Of a stretch of 64,000 nucleotides of DNA, positions 31,194 to 35,998 are shown piece by piece. Each line of letters opens with the position of its first letter. Position 1 is the first letter of the stretch. The translations under genes were made by a program, and so were the position numbers. This stretch comes from Eubacterium limosum (lineage in GTDB: Bacteria; Bacillota; Clostridia; Eubacteriales; Eubacteriaceae), in the NCBI RefSeq assembly GCF_000807675.2, contig NZ_CP019962.1:3755157-3819156 (forward strand), read 5' to 3'. The notes under the pieces are model-generated. The model saw only the letters and a list, made by a program, of their open reading frames with translations, ran no database searches and was not told the DNA's origin.

Positions 31194-31397
31194 ATGACTG
31201 GGATTGTGGACCGGATTGAAGGTACAGTAGCCGTGATTGAGCGGGAGGACGGTGTTTTTATAAGCGAACCGGTCTCAAGCTATGGAGGAGCGCCCATTAA
31301 AGAAGGATATAAAGTCGACCTGGAGCGTCATGAAGTTTTAGTATCTGATTTTAACAAAGATGATTTGTCTGACATTAACCAATATTTTAACGATTAG
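31194..31397 (+). CDS. DUF3006-type small protein
   Basis: A 67-residue, acidic, beta-rich protein: MTGIVDRIEGTVAVIEREDGVFISEPVSSYGG, then KEGYKVDLERHEVLVSD. The opening IVDRIEG-AVIE and a short second beta unit fit the DUF3006 family, whose members have no assigned function. The ATG follows ACAGGAGG. It begins the operon that continues with murT 18 bases downstream, so a link to cell-wall precursor modification is possible but is only a neighbourhood inference. Confidence 0.75.
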   Translation: MTGIVDRIEGTVAVIEREDGVFISEPVSSYGGAPIKEGYKVDLERHEVLVSDFNKDDLSDINQYFND

Positions 31398-31415: not shown

Positions 31416-32765
31416 ATGAAGTTTTATTTGGCGTTATGGTACGCTAAAGCCATTAACGGCCTCATCAATCTTGTCAGCAAGGGGAGAGGTTCTAACCTTT
31501 CTGGAGAGAAGGCCTTAAAGGTAGACCCGAGAATGGTCGAGCATTTCAAGGGGATCGACTATTCCAAGGTTGTTTTTATTACAGGAACCAATGGTAAATC
31601 AAGCACCACCAACCTGGTGGCTCATATTTTACGGGAAAACGGAAAAACCGTTGTATCAAACCTGGAGGGCGCAAACCTGCTGCCCGGCATCGCCACCATT
31701 CTGGCAAAAGAATCGACAATGACCGGAAAACTCAAGGCGGACTATTTTGTCTTTGAAACAGACGAGCGTTATTTACCCCTTATTTATGACCAGCTGCCAG
31801 CTGAAAACATGTTAATCACCAATCTGCAGAAGGATCAGGTTCAGCGCAACGGCGACCCGGATTTTATCTATCGCAAGCTCACCTCTTTTATGAATCCAAA
31901 AATGCATTTATATTTAAATAATGAAGAGCCTCGAACAAAATCCTTTGAACGCTTTACCGACCATGTCACTTATTATGGCGTGGAAAAGCATTCTGAATCC
32001 TTTGAAAAAGACGAAACCTATCCGACCTGCGCCTGTCCAAAATGCTACCATAAGGTTGATTTTGACTATTATACCATCGACAGCGTCGGTCCGTTTACCT
32101 GTACAAACTGCGGGTATTCCAGTGAAGCGGCACCCCATTATGCCGTGAAGGATGTTGATTTTGAAAATAAGACTTTCACCGTTGAGGATGAAAGCTTTAA
32201 TATGCCCTATGACCTGCCGTTTATGCTGTACAACTACAGCGGTGCTCTGGCGCTTTGCGAACGCTTTGCCGGCGTCTCTGTCAAGGACGCGGTCCCTGCC
32301 TTTAATTCTTTTAAAAACATTGGCGGCCGTTTTGAGGTGCTTCACTACAAGGATAAAACCATTAAATATATGCGAATCAAGCAGGAAAACCCGGATACAC
32401 TCCAGAGCGCTTTAAACATCATGGCTTCAGACCAGGAAGAAAAAATGGTCTGTTTTGGCTTCTATGCGGTTTCGGATTTTATCCCATTCTATACCAACAC
32501 CTTTTACAGCTTTGACTGTGACTTCAAGCCACTTGCGGAATCGAATGTTGAAAAATATTTTTGTTTCTCTCAAAATGTCTGCTATGATACCGCCAACCGG
32601 TTGATTTACGAAGGCGTTGAATCGTCAAAAATCGCCATCAAGGATACCGATGATATCAAAACGATTTTTGAAGAAATTGAAAAAGCAGATACTTCAAATA
32701 TTTATCTGATTACATGGCTTGAAACCTTTAATAAAATGAAAAAATACATCGAGGAGGGCAATTAA
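31416..32765 (+). CDS. murT: MurT-like Mur ligase (lipid II alpha-carboxyl-activating subunit)
   Basis: A 449-residue Mur-ligase-fold protein. The ATP loop FITGTNGKSSTTNLVAHIL is at about residues 53-71; DYFVFETDERYLPLIYDQL follows. A four-Cys zinc ribbon, CACPKCYH and CTNCGYSS (about 205-234), is inserted in the central domain, as in MurT. The C-terminal DUF1727-type domain is present. In MurT-GatD this subunit activates the alpha-carboxyl of lipid II D-Glu for amidation. The usual GRDVSW segment, whose Asp completes the GatD triad in Staphylococcus aureus, reads FYTNTFYS here, so that Asp seems replaced. The GatD-like partner follows with no gap. Confidence 0.88.
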   Translation: MKFYLALWYAKAINGLINLVSKGRGSNLSGEKALKVDPRMVEHFKGIDYSKVVFITGTNGKSSTTNLVAHILRENGKTVVSNLEGANLLPGIATILAKESTMTGKLKADYFVFETDERYLPLIYDQLPAENMLITNLQKDQVQRNGDPDFIYRKLTSFMNPKMHLYLNNEEPRTKSFERFTDHVTYYGVEKHSESFEKDETYPTCACPKCYHKVDFDYYTIDSVGPFTCTNCGYSSEAAPHYAVKDVDFENKTFTVEDESFNMPYDLPFMLYNYSGALALCERFAGVSVKDAVPAFNSFKNIGGRFEVLHYKDKTIKYMRIKQENPDTLQSALNIMASDQEEKMVCFGFYAVSDFIPFYTNTFYSFDCDFKPLAESNVEKYFCFSQNVCYDTANRLIYEGVESSKIAIKDTDDIKTIFEEIEKADTSNIYLITWLETFNKMKKYIEEGN

Positions 32766-33536
32766 ATGAATGAAAAAACATTAAAGATCGGGTGGATGTT
32801 TCCCGATTCCCTGTACCTCCACGGTGACCGCGGAAATGTTCTGGCTTTAAAGCGTATGGGCGAAGCCGCAGGGTTTGAGGTGGAAATCGAAAAAATTGAT
32901 TTTGACACTGAAGATTTCACACCAATGGATTATGATTTCTTATTCTGTTCACCGGGAGAGATCGCTTCTTTTTCTTCCATCATTGATTATCTGGAGCCTT
33001 ATGACCTTTCACTCCGCGGCTTCATTCAGGCTGGCCGTCCCATGCTTGTCACTGGAACCAGCATTGCTCTCTGGGGCAATGAAATCAGGAGAGATGACGG
33101 CAGTGTCGTCAAAGGCCTGGGCATTATTGATGTGGAAACCACTGAAAACAAAGCCGTCTACGGTGATGATCTTTATTTCAGCTGTAACCTGAATGGCTCA
33201 CAAATGGAAATCATCGGGAACCAGATCCAGATGGCTGATTTCAGACTGACCGGCGACGACGAGCCCTTTGGAAAGCTGAACTATGGATACGGTAATAACG
33301 GCAAAGACACCAATGAGGGCGTCCAGATCAAAAACGCGGTCTTTACAAATACCCTTGGTCCGGTGCTTGTCTGTAATCCCTGGATGACCGAAGCCTTTGT
33401 CCGCATCATTGCAGATAATCAGGAAACAGACCTGGAAAACTTCTCTGTCAATATGACGCTTGAAGAAAAATCCTTTGAGACTAAAAAACAGTTTATTTTG
33501 AAAAAGACAACACATCTGACAAATTGTAAAAGATAA
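32766..33536 (+). CDS. GatD-like protein lacking glutaminase catalytic residues
   Basis: A 256-residue protein of the class-I glutamine-amidotransferase fold, clearly of the GatD branch: WMFPDSLYLHGDRGNVLALKR, then VKGLGIIDVETTENKAVYGD, LNYGYGNNGKDTNEGVQIKN and TLGPVLVCNP. Aligned by eye with S. aureus GatD, the nucleophile elbow TICGGYQ reads VTGTSIA (residues 95-101, no Cys), and the catalytic His of YLHGP reads NTLGP (Leu 197). Cys 61 sits elsewhere, in the glycine loop. The surrounding fold motifs are kept, so this looks like a constrained but glutaminase-dead partner and not a decaying gene. It starts one base after murT stops and is followed directly by mnmA. Confidence 0.85.
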   Translation: MNEKTLKIGWMFPDSLYLHGDRGNVLALKRMGEAAGFEVEIEKIDFDTEDFTPMDYDFLFCSPGEIASFSSIIDYLEPYDLSLRGFIQAGRPMLVTGTSIALWGNEIRRDDGSVVKGLGIIDVETTENKAVYGDDLYFSCNLNGSQMEIIGNQIQMADFRLTGDDEPFGKLNYGYGNNGKDTNEGVQIKNAVFTNTLGPVLVCNPWMTEAFVRIIADNQETDLENFSVNMTLEEKSFETKKQFILKKTTHLTNCKR

Positions 33537-34568
33537 ATGAAAAATAAAAAAGTAATTGTGGGATTCAGCGGCGGTGCAGACAGTGCTGCCGCTGTTCTGA
33601 TTTTAAAAAACAAAGGTTATGAGGTACTGGGCGTAACCTTTGATTTTTTTGGAAATGAACACCTTCTCGAAAAAGCCAGTGTCCTTGCAAAACAAATCGG
33701 CATCCAGCATGAATGCATCAACAGGCAGCGTGAGTTCAGGGAAAAGGTCATAAAACCATTTATAAGCGAATATCTCAGAGGTCATACGCCCAACCCCTGT
33801 GTCCGCTGTGACGCAGGGATGAAATTCAAAGGGCTGATGGCGTACGCCAATGAAAAAGAGGCTGAATTTATCGCGACTGGCCACTACTTAAGGCTTGAAA
33901 AACGTCATGGACAGGTTCAGATTAAGACCAGTGAGGATAGCAGAAAAGACCAGAGCTATTATCTCTATACCCTTGATCAGGAATATCTGAGCCGTCTTAT
34001 TTTTCCTCTGAGTGCTTTTCAGTCAAAAGATGCGGTGCGGGCTTTTTTGGAGAAGGAGGGGATAGCGATTCCAAAATCTGAAGAAAGCCAGGGAATCTGC
34101 TTTATCCCGGACGGAAATTACGCCCGTTTCATAAAAAAAGAAATACCGTTAATGCCCGAAGGACGTTTTCGGGATCGTTTTGGTAAAATTCTCGGCAGCC
34201 ATAACGGTTTTTATTATTATACGGTTGGGCAAAAGCGCGGCGTTCCGGTGATTTCCGGAAAAAAATATGTTGTTACTGCTCTGCGTCCAGAATTTAATGA
34301 GGTTATTCTCGGTGAGGAATCCGATCTTTATCAGAAGAAAATCTTTTTAAAAGAACTTCACTTTATTGACGGCAGCTTATATTCAGGAGAAATACAATTT
34401 AAAGTATGCCGCTGGGGTTACCTTTATCCGGGAAGGCTCCACCTGTCCGGTGACCGCAGAGGCTATCTGGAGTGTGAAAAAGCTGTTCGAGCGCCTATGC
34501 CCGGGCAGTCTGCAGTCTTTTATGACGGGGACAGGCTTTTAGGCGGCGGAATCATCGAGTATAAGTAA
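33537..34568 (+). CDS. mnmA: tRNA-specific 2-thiouridylase
   Basis: A 343-residue enzyme that thiolates U34 of Lys, Glu and Gln tRNAs. The PP-loop is GFSGGADSAAA (residues about 9-19; the usual SGGVDSS is slightly altered). The two catalytic cysteines lie in TPNPCVRCD (about 85) and ESQGICFIPDG (about 182). YYTVGQKRGVPV, then the C-terminal barrel with RAPMPGQSAVFYDGDRLLGGGII, are standard. Its ATG directly follows the gatD-like stop, so it is in the murT operon, perhaps only by convenience. A second, more canonical MnmA elsewhere in the genome is possible. Confidence 0.88.
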   Translation: MKNKKVIVGFSGGADSAAAVLILKNKGYEVLGVTFDFFGNEHLLEKASVLAKQIGIQHECINRQREFREKVIKPFISEYLRGHTPNPCVRCDAGMKFKGLMAYANEKEAEFIATGHYLRLEKRHGQVQIKTSEDSRKDQSYYLYTLDQEYLSRLIFPLSAFQSKDAVRAFLEKEGIAIPKSEESQGICFIPDGNYARFIKKEIPLMPEGRFRDRFGKILGSHNGFYYYTVGQKRGVPVISGKKYVVTALRPEFNEVILGEESDLYQKKIFLKELHFIDGSLYSGEIQFKVCRWGYLYPGRLHLSGDRRGYLECEKAVRAPMPGQSAVFYDGDRLLGGGIIEYK

Positions 34569-34663: not shown

Positions 34664-35998
34664 ATGGGAAAATTTTTTGGTACTGATGGTGTTCGTGGTG
34701 TCTTTGGTGAGGAGTTAACCACAGAATTAGCCTATCAGCTTGGACGTTATGGCGCTTATATATTATCAGAAGGCAGCCATAATCCTAAAATTGTTATTGG
34801 GAAGGATACCCGTATTTCGGGCGATCCTCTTGAAAAAGCTCTGACAGACGGTATTATCTCGGTAGGGGGTAAAGTTGTACTGGCAGGCGTTATACCAACA
34901 CCCGCTGTCGCGGTCATTGCCCGCGAGATCAAGGCAGATGCCGGGATTGTCATCTCCGCATCGCACAACCCTTATCAGTTTAATGGGATTAAATTTTTTA
35001 ATGGCGCAGGTTACAAGCTCTCTGATGACGTAGAAAATCAGATTGAAAAATGTATCATTGACCAGCTTACAATCAATGACCGGACCGATGGTTCAGTCGA
35101 AACCCTTGAGCAGCCTGAAAAAATCTATGTGGAGCACATCACAAAAGGATTCGCCTGCGATTTTTCCGGTATCCGTATGGTGCTGGACTGTGCCAATGGC
35201 GCTTCCTACCGCATTGCGCCGAAGTTTTTCATGGAAGCCGGAGCCGATGTGGTTGTGATCGGTCATGAACCAAACGGCAAAAACATCAATGACGGATACG
35301 GTTCTACCTGTCTTGACAAGCTGAGCGATCATGTCCTCTCAGAAAAAGCCGACATCGGGATTGCCTTTGACGGTGACGCAGACCGCTGTCTGGCAGTTGA
35401 CAATGAAGGCCGCATCATCGACGGCGATAAGATCCTTCATCTGGTCGGCGCAAAGCTGAAACAGGAGGGCCGGCTGAAAAAGGATACAGTCGTGGTGACC
35501 GTTATGAGTAATATCGGCCTCGATATCGCTTTGAAAGACTGCGGCTGCAAAAGTGTTAAGACAAATGTCGGCGACCGCTATGTTCTGGAAGAAATGCTGA
35601 AAGAAGGGTATAATCTCGGCGGGGAACAATCTGGCCATGTTATCTTGCTGGATCATAATACCACCGGCGACGGTCTTTTAACCGCAGTATCTCTTTTAAC
35701 GATCTTAAAGGAAGAAACCCGCACCTCAGCTGAGCTTTCGTCCTTAATGACCTCCTATCCACAGGTGCTTGTGAATGCAAAAGTGACCAATCAGACTAAA
35801 AATGACTACCTGACAGATGAAATTATCCAGAAGCGAATCACAGAGGTTGAAAAGCATTTTGACGGCCAGGGGCGTGTATTAATCCGCCCATCAGGCACGG
35901 AGCCTCTGGTGCGTGTCATGATTGAAGGCAAAGACCAGTCTGAACTTAACCGCATTGCCACAGATCTGGCTAAACTCATTGAGGAGCGCCTGGCTTAA
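34664..35998 (+). CDS. glmM: Phosphoglucosamine mutase
   Basis: A 444-residue alpha-D-phosphohexomutase interconverting glucosamine-6-phosphate and glucosamine-1-phosphate, feeding UDP-GlcNAc and the cell wall. FGTDGVRG opens the protein (residues 4-11). ISASHNPYQFNGIKFF (about 98-113) holds the phosphoserine, and FDGDADRCLAVD (about 235) the metal Asp residues. RPSGTEPLVRVMIEG (about 408) binds the substrate phosphate. Length and all four motifs are typical. It has its own promoter and no overlap with mnmA. Confidence 0.97.
   Translation: MGKFFGTDGVRGVFGEELTTELAYQLGRYGAYILSEGSHNPKIVIGKDTRISGDPLEKALTDGIISVGGKVVLAGVIPTPAVAVIAREIKADAGIVISASHNPYQFNGIKFFNGAGYKLSDDVENQIEKCIIDQLTINDRTDGSVETLEQPEKIYVEHITKGFACDFSGIRMVLDCANGASYRIAPKFFMEAGADVVVIGHEPNGKNINDGYGSTCLDKLSDHVLSEKADIGIAFDGDADRCLAVDNEGRIIDGDKILHLVGAKLKQEGRLKKDTVVVTVMSNIGLDIALKDCGCKSVKTNVGDRYVLEEMLKEGYNLGGEQSGHVILLDHNTTGDGLLTAVSLLTILKEETRTSAELSSLMTSYPQVLVNAKVTNQTKNDYLTDEIIQKRITEVEKHFDGQGRVLIRPSGTEPLVRVMIEGKDQSELNRIATDLAKLIEERLA

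Follow-up and report, generated by a model that had tools for sequence, protein, structure and literature searches.

What can a MurT-GatD pair still make when its GatD subunit has lost the glutaminase residues? This question is raised by a two-gene locus of Eubacterium limosum, located in a stretch of 64,000 nucleotides of the forward strand (assembly GCF_000807675.2, contig NZ_CP019962.1, positions 3,755,157 to 3,819,156), hereafter the window, to which all coordinates refer. Two intact open reading frames are arranged head to tail, the murT stop touching the gatD start with zero bases between them:

31416..32765, + strand: MurT-like Mur ligase subunit of a remodelled clade, 449 amino acids (aa)
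32766..33536, + strand: GatD-like subunit without the glutaminase Cys and His, 256 aa

An earlier sequence-only reading had proposed that this GatD is dead as a glutaminase, and that the pair couples an amino acid or free ammonia to lipid II. Comparison of the sequences with those of relatives indicates that the pair is probably an ATP-dependent two-subunit ligase, joining D-ornithine (D-Orn) or D-lysine (D-Lys) to the alpha-carboxyl of D-Glu in the peptidoglycan precursor, with GatD in a non-catalytic role.

A GatD fold without glutaminase residues

The MurT-like protein matches Pfam Mur_ligase_M and MurT_C, both above the gathering cut-offs, while the GatD-like protein lies at the border of Pfam GATase_3 (gathering cut-off 27 bits), with 26.7 bits in hmmscan and 27 bits, flagged as above the cut-off, in the genome search. 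The best NCBIfam families are MurT (142.7 of an 800-bit equivalog cut-off) and GatD (78 of 400 bits), both below; the 400-bit GatD cut-off was reached by none of the 291 Clostridia genomes of a class draw, so missing it says little. The solved structures that match best by sequence are the MurT/GatD complexes of Staphylococcus aureus, Streptococcus pneumoniae and Streptococcus pyogenes, with E values of 2.6e-15 to 7.5e-14 for the three GatD proteins and 3.9e-40 for S. aureus MurT. The top fold matches are also MurT and GatD; the second subunit has the GatD fold, and its gene adjoins murT.

Compared with the MurT-GatD lipid II isoglutaminyl synthase of these three species, the E. limosum (host) pair shares the Mur ligase middle and MurT_C domains, the ATP loop and the zinc ribbon. 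It differs in the absence of both glutaminase residues and of MurT D349, in changed loop and C-terminal motifs of MurT, and in scores far under the equivalog cut-offs. The Mur fold has other products, and cyanophycin synthetase and folylpolyglutamate synthetase are among the fold matches, as would suit a Mur-like ligase for another peptide or a cofactor instead of a peptidoglycan precursor. With MurT and GatD as the best matches in both fold and sequence, and with the pair being the sole MurT/GatD of its genome, such a function outside the wall is very unlikely.

The glutaminase triad of S. aureus comprises GatD C94 and H189 together with MurT D349, according to one study (PMC6113224), whereas a study on S. 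pneumoniae assigns the third member to an Asp of GatD (PMC6085368). In the host GatD, the corresponding positions are as follows:

33048..33077, + strand: former nucleophile elbow VTGTSIALWG, with Gly97 (33054-33056) at the position of S. aureus Cys94 in the alignments
33345..33362, + strand: TNTLGP, with Leu197 (33354-33356) at the position of S. aureus His189 in the alignments
32826..32828, + strand: Asp21, kept, at the acidic triad position as assigned in S. pneumoniae (alignment and PMC6085368)

The proposed loss of Cys and His from a retained GatD fold is thus borne out, with Gly97 standing for C94 and Leu197 for H189, and the predicted GatD model places a strand (93-96) followed by a helix (97-103) around the former elbow. 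MurT D349 is likewise lost, Asn361 being aligned there. The statement that all three triad members are gone therefore holds under the S. aureus assignment and fails under the S. pneumoniae one, in which the kept Asp21 is the third member; this position carries Asp or Glu in most clade rows shown. A substitute for the missing residues was also sought. No Cys is invariant or nearly so in a 54-row GatD alignment, and among the His residues near-invariance is reached by His19 alone, a position at which the intact GatDs compared carry Tyr. No other Cys or His was seen in the alignments to take over the active site, and in the 54 rows the former active site is occupied by nearly invariant residues.

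Remodelling of the MurT subunit

The MurT subunit combines a conserved ATP-binding core with rewritten motifs. In the 53-row MurT alignment, the following features were distinguished:

31581..31601, + strand: ATP loop TGTNGKS, with T56, G57, T58, G60, K61 and S62 invariant and N59 nearly so (53 rows)
31755..31772, + strand: E-T-D-E-R-Y at the Mg site, where intact MurTs read E-x-D-E-A
31821..31853, + strand: active-site loop NLQKDQVQRNG, in contrast to N-x-F-R-D-Q-L-D-R-Y/F-G in most intact MurTs
32034..32111, + strand: zinc ribbon C207, C210, C229 and C232, all four invariant in 53 rows
32373..32402, + strand: RIKQENPDTL, longer by two inserted residues than the K-N-P segment of intact MurT, and with K-Q-E invariant
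32484..32525, + strand: PFYTNTFYSFDCDF in place of the DNxADGxDxSW segment, with Asn361 (32496-32498) at the D349 position

The ATP loop and zinc ribbon are intact, as had been proposed, with TGTNGKS, the Mg-site Glu (E114, invariant in all 53 rows) and the four zinc cysteines kept. Intact MurTs mostly carry DEA, FRDQLDRY, K-NP and DGxDxSW at the remodelled sites; the clade has exchanged KNP for KQENP and DGxDxSW for NTFYxFDCD. These changes are themselves fixed, since R118, N136, K139, D140, Q141, Q143, R144, N145, K322, Q323, E324, P326 and D367 are invariant in the 53 rows, and N361, F363, Y364 and C368 nearly so. Muench and others noted a likeness between the lysine site of MurE and the DNAADD segment in the MurT of S. 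aureus (PMC3266927), and it is this same segment that is rewritten in the clade MurT.

Conservation and selection across relatives

Relatives were collected by a MurT-alignment scan of named genomes, which gave 146, of which the best 80 were used as the focal set; selection was made by MurT and not by GatD. The set comprises Eubacterium, Acetobacterium, Emergencia, Hornefia, Aminicella, Mogibacterium, Collinsella and many gut genomes. A paired GatD is present in 79 of the 80 loci, the exception (L116) breaking off about 100 bases past murT, and three loci have a second pair, giving 82 neighbouring GatDs. The catalytic Cys is missing in all 82 (77 Gly, 3 Ser and 2 Ala) and the His in all 81 that are readable. 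Because the loss is present in every one of the 82 neighbouring pairs found through MurT, it goes beyond chance, and it is a clade trait, not decay or accident. In the three loci with tandem pairs (L143:1470-5873, L148:5974-10373 and L154:5977-10468), the pairs follow head to tail and the second GatD reads VSSSG and TGCVGP; two successive ligations are possibly carried out there.

Within the host's own family, dead motifs were read in 28 loci of genera g1-g5, the host included, and in one locus of G036, while CGGYQ and HG were read in 8 loci from genera g6-g8, to which G036 again contributes one. One duplicate each of the host and G036 loci, as well as a fragment of G021 at a contig end, are left out of this count, and G009, also of these genera, had no match to GatD. 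In a random phylum draw of 398 genomes, three reach E 1e-70 with the MurT clade alignment, namely the host genome, G463 (5.7e-175) and G126 (6.9e-74), the last being a member of another dead clade. The focal clade is thus widespread but not common.

The gatD gene is under purifying selection. Its ratio of nonsynonymous to synonymous substitution rates (dN/dS) is 0.041 and 0.042 against two same-genus orthologues (dS 0.60 and 0.85), and 0.05-0.16 among the computable Acetobacterium pairs; many other pairs are saturated and yield no value. The closest named record, Eubacterium callanderi FD, has a MurT identical at 100% (tblastn) and a dS of 0.012-0.015, and the gatD ratio of 0.537 against it (dS 0.012) rests on very few changes. 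These values bear on the idea that GatD is a decaying relic beside a MurT acting alone, with which the faster evolution of GatD (mean column identity 42%, vs 53% for MurT) would agree. A relic should hardly be retained as a neighbouring frame in 79 of 80 loci, with ratios of 0.04-0.16 wherever dS is above minimal and unsaturated, and with nearly invariant residues in its former active site; we give this idea almost no credence.

Further MurT and GatD copies

A second, intact GatD could account for amidation independently of the pair. The host genome (4,422,837 bases, one contig) was therefore searched with the profiles PF07685 and PF08353, revealing one MurT_C protein and four GATase_3 proteins besides GatD. 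Two of the latter have neighbours that fit their reading: L003, next to PdxS, looks like PdxT, and L004, in the company of other his genes, looks like HisH. Two long frames (500 and 468 aa) were taken as CobQ and CobB. Hence no second MurT or GatD was found in the complete host genome, and D-Glu amidation by another copy is not available. If the host pair does not amidate, its wall should carry no D-isoglutamine made by MurT-GatD.

Among the second GatD matches read in 50 focal genomes, none is intact; one match, a 285-aa frame of G755, lay outside the reading. Two of these genomes have a second short GatD of another type, with Cys changed to Gly and His kept in G745 (L232) and with both residues lost in G734 (L233). 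The extra matches of G748, G752 and G756 fit tandem pairs, and those near 500 aa were taken as cobyric acid synthase.

Association with ornithine racemase and arginase

A genomic link to D-diamino acid synthesis is found next to the pair in relatives. In 12 of the 80 focal loci, a homologous gene stands directly 3' of gatD, with frames touching or overlapping. NCBIfam identifies it as ornithine racemase Orr (NF040742) in the four copies scanned, with E values of 3.5e-103 to 2.4e-137 and scores of 345-458 bits, below the 480-bit curated cut-off; three of these span nearly the whole model and the fourth covers positions 1-305 of 351. When loci were searched with the Orr profile, a match directly followed gatD in 13 of the 80 focal loci, Collinsella being the thirteenth, and in none of 47 control loci. 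The controls were 49 fetched loci minus L041 and L231, which are dead pairs of the focal kind; 42 of the 47 carry both Cys and His. The stretches compared are of similar length (controls: median 12.0 kb, 6 under 11 kb; focal: median 13.3 kb, 28 under 11 kb). An arginase follows Orr in 6 of the 12 loci (L117, L121, L123, L128, L135 and L138), against none in the 47 controls. The one arginase scanned gave E 2.5e-57 and 194.5 of 227.6 bits in NCBIfam, and is above the Pfam cut-off; the operon arginase would make ornithine. Separately, an amino-acid ABC transporter precedes the pair in five other loci. For the one binding protein scanned, the lysine/arginine/ornithine type is the best match, although the score stays under the cut-off of that type.

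The association extends beyond the operon. In the host's family, Orr occurs in 29 of the 30 genomes whose genera have the dead pair and in none of the 8 from intact-GatD genera, with genus g9 (two genomes, no GatD match) having it in one. Of the 80 focal genomes, 50 were scanned and 43 carry Orr. In the class draw, Orr is present in 44 of 291 genomes, but in only 4 of the 108 whose GatD match is strong (E value of 1e-47 or lower) and in all 8 whose pair was read as focal, a list that may be incomplete; the GatD-score and Orr draws were taken as the same 291 genomes. These Orr counts ignore relatedness.

Wall chemistry, proposed reaction and alternatives

Group-B peptidoglycan is cross-linked via the D-Glu alpha-carboxyl, and B2 bridges start at this carboxyl, through a D-diamino acid. 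Alpha-carboxyl glycine and group B are known from Micrococcus and Microbacteriaceae. We know of no enzyme assigned to the first bond of the group-B bridge. A literature search found neither a dead GatD nor a group-B bridge ligase; with most subscription papers and all preprints outside its coverage, this is weak evidence of absence. A near system is MurE, the UDP-MurNAc-dipeptide:diamino acid ligase. It is set apart from the host pair by its target, the gamma-carboxyl of D-Glu in the UDP precursor, by its build as one subunit that lacks a zinc ribbon, and by its product, the residue at position 3.

Ala, Glu, Lys, Orn and Ser occur in the cell wall of the type strain of E. limosum (PMC4791908), and the table of a 2024 review lists types A1gamma, A4alpha, A4beta and B2alpha for the genus Eubacterium (PMC11382707). 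Several precedents come from a study on S. aureus (PMC3266927). There, MurT was stated to form UDP-MurNAc-Ala-Glu-Lys in vitro, although the study did not show the data, and by itself had no activity on lipid II. Ammonia-dependent amidation at pH 8.5 was still possible with GatD C94G, and no use of ammonia was seen in this study at pH 7.5. Taken together, these precedents make it plausible that MurT accepts a diamino acid, that a Cys-less GatD enables MurT, and that GatD is needed as a partner.

The residue loss, the joint remodelling of both subunits, their conservation, the lack of another MurT/GatD in the genome and the association with Orr and arginase are observed; the substrate, the chemistry of the step and the part played by GatD are inferred. 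MurT would bind ATP and lipid I/II, or a like precursor, and would phosphorylate the alpha-carboxyl of D-Glu at position 2. An Orr-type racemase would supply free D-ornithine or D-lysine, and this D-diamino acid, instead of ammonia, would attack the acyl phosphate and so become the residue from which group-B (B2) peptidoglycan branches. GatD would act as a structural partner without glutamine hydrolysis, and would probably close or shape the pocket.

The C94G precedent also suggests a simpler outcome, namely an ammonia-dependent amidase forming D-isoglutamine from free ammonia, since Gly stands at the same position in the host GatD, and since sporadic loss of Cys or His beside an otherwise canonical MurT does exist (L222, L227, L228, L229, L232 and L289). 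However, those sporadic cases largely keep the canonical MurT, whereas the loop, KNP and D349 segments are remodelled here; the S. aureus study saw no use of ammonia at the lower pH; and an amidase would leave both the Orr association and the B2alpha wall unexplained. We therefore consider amidation by this pair unlikely. Of the two substrates named in the sequence-only reading, an amino acid joined with a dead GatD as scaffold is accordingly the better supported, by the Orr link, the remodelled MurT, the lack of a second copy and the S. aureus precedents, and free ammonia the less likely.

Several points weigh against a D-diamino acid ligase. In the host itself, Orr is a lone gene (positions 3051843-3052892 of the genome's single contig), apart from the pair and lying, by sequence, between leuS and a transporter gene, so that the link observed in 13 of 80 relative loci is absent from this genome; its 437 bits are below the 480-bit curated cut-off. 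In a 61-sequence Orr tree with weak deep branches, the host and operon copies stand apart from those above the cut-off, and Orr may serve ornithine catabolism. All loci with an operon-linked Orr fall in a single region of the tree, and within the family the genera that bear Orr are closely related, so that each association may represent few events. G036, from an intact-GatD genus, has a dead pair beside an intact one and carries no Orr. Orr is also missing from 7 of the 50 focal genomes, 5 of which fall in one subclade (L130, L137, L142, L149 and L151), whose amino acid may differ or come from elsewhere. Furthermore, the link to group B depends on literature for a few named taxa, with Emergencia, Hornefia, Mogibacterium and Collinsella outside it, and the review table gives A types for Eubacterium too (PMC11382707).

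The seven focal genomes without Orr would also fit a pair that joins another amino acid (glycine, serine, L-lysine or other) to D-Glu, with Orr serving another wall step or catabolism. A related dead clade points the same way, having Orr in none of its 13 genomes of the class draw (the thirteenth, G126 with locus L077, was grouped by tree), as does the alpha-carboxyl glycine described for Intrasporangium calvum (PMC3035309). Against this stand the 13 relatives with Orr directly after the pair, the 6 with arginase, and the way Orr tracks the clade within the family, and a different amino acid in the host appears improbable.

As a D-Orn or D-Lys ligase, the pair offers a concrete two-gene candidate, with a predicted substrate, for the first bond of the group-B bridge, and it is present in cultured acetogens that are genetically tractable. 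If the assignment is true, a glutamine amidotransferase complex has been turned into an amino-acid ligase while retaining its dead glutaminase subunit, and wall type could become predictable from genomes.

Other glutaminase-dead lineages

MurT trees were built with FastTree (153 rows) and, in a quick run, with IQ-TREE (75 rows), near-identical rows having been removed first. In the FastTree phylogeny, the focal clade (52 rows, support 100) lies within a 69-row clade in which every GatD is dead, with seven state changes overall. IQ-TREE agrees, with 25 focal rows (support 100), a dead superclade of 38 rows (support 98) and six state changes. Several of the remaining changes are single lineages with a largely canonical MurT, e.g., L222, L228, L229 and L232. 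Scattered loss of the GatD Cys or His was noted in L222, L227, L228, L229, L232, L289, L290 and L339, most of them beside a canonical-motif MurT; the MurT of L290 is split over two frames, and that of L339 is divergent. The scattered-loss loci are candidates for ammonia-fed amidation.

A second dead clade spans many Clostridia (L230, L275-L278, L280 and L283-L288). Its MurT mostly carries RDQ.TRN[GA]H, KHENS and ISRKYxTxxxSW segments, and its GatD carries TGN[SA] or a similar motif, together with IGP, TGP or SGP in most cases. A third dead type comprises nine Actinomycetota loci (L323-L326 and L328-L332), with KGEN[SD] in MurT and GN[AV] and [IL]GP in GatD. In this phylum, a MurT_C match is present in 189 of 396 genomes, and the loci of 60 were read (the 30 best-scoring and 30 chosen, mostly weak-scoring, Collinsella included). 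Of 41 tabulated pairs, 36 have Cys and His and 5 do not, Collinsella being counted as focal. Ten further loci are dead by motif, namely the nine KGENS-like ones and L335, and in L339 the Cys is gone (VGTGW) with HGP retained.

If the second and third dead clades are ligases, their amino acids probably differ from that of the focal clade. We see roughly even chances that dead MurT-GatD pairs form a large, old superfamily of peptidoglycan amino-acid ligases, whose clades would use different amino acids (D-Orn or D-Lys and group B in the Orr-linked clade; others in the KHENS-like Clostridia and KGENS-like Actinomycetota) and whose tandem pairs would build two-residue bridges. Such a superfamily would, if real, supply the unassigned ATP-dependent ligases for alpha-carboxyl branches.

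Neighbouring genes

Upstream of murT, a 67-aa frame beginning MTGIVDRIEG (31194-31397), which looks DUF3006-like, stops 18 bases before the murT start, and the operon may begin with it. On the other side, a gene resembling the tRNA 2-thiouridylase gene mnmA (33537-34568) starts immediately behind the stop of gatD and is followed by glmM (34664-35998). The same mnmA-like/glmM order after gatD is also seen in the Acetobacterium loci whose contigs are long enough.

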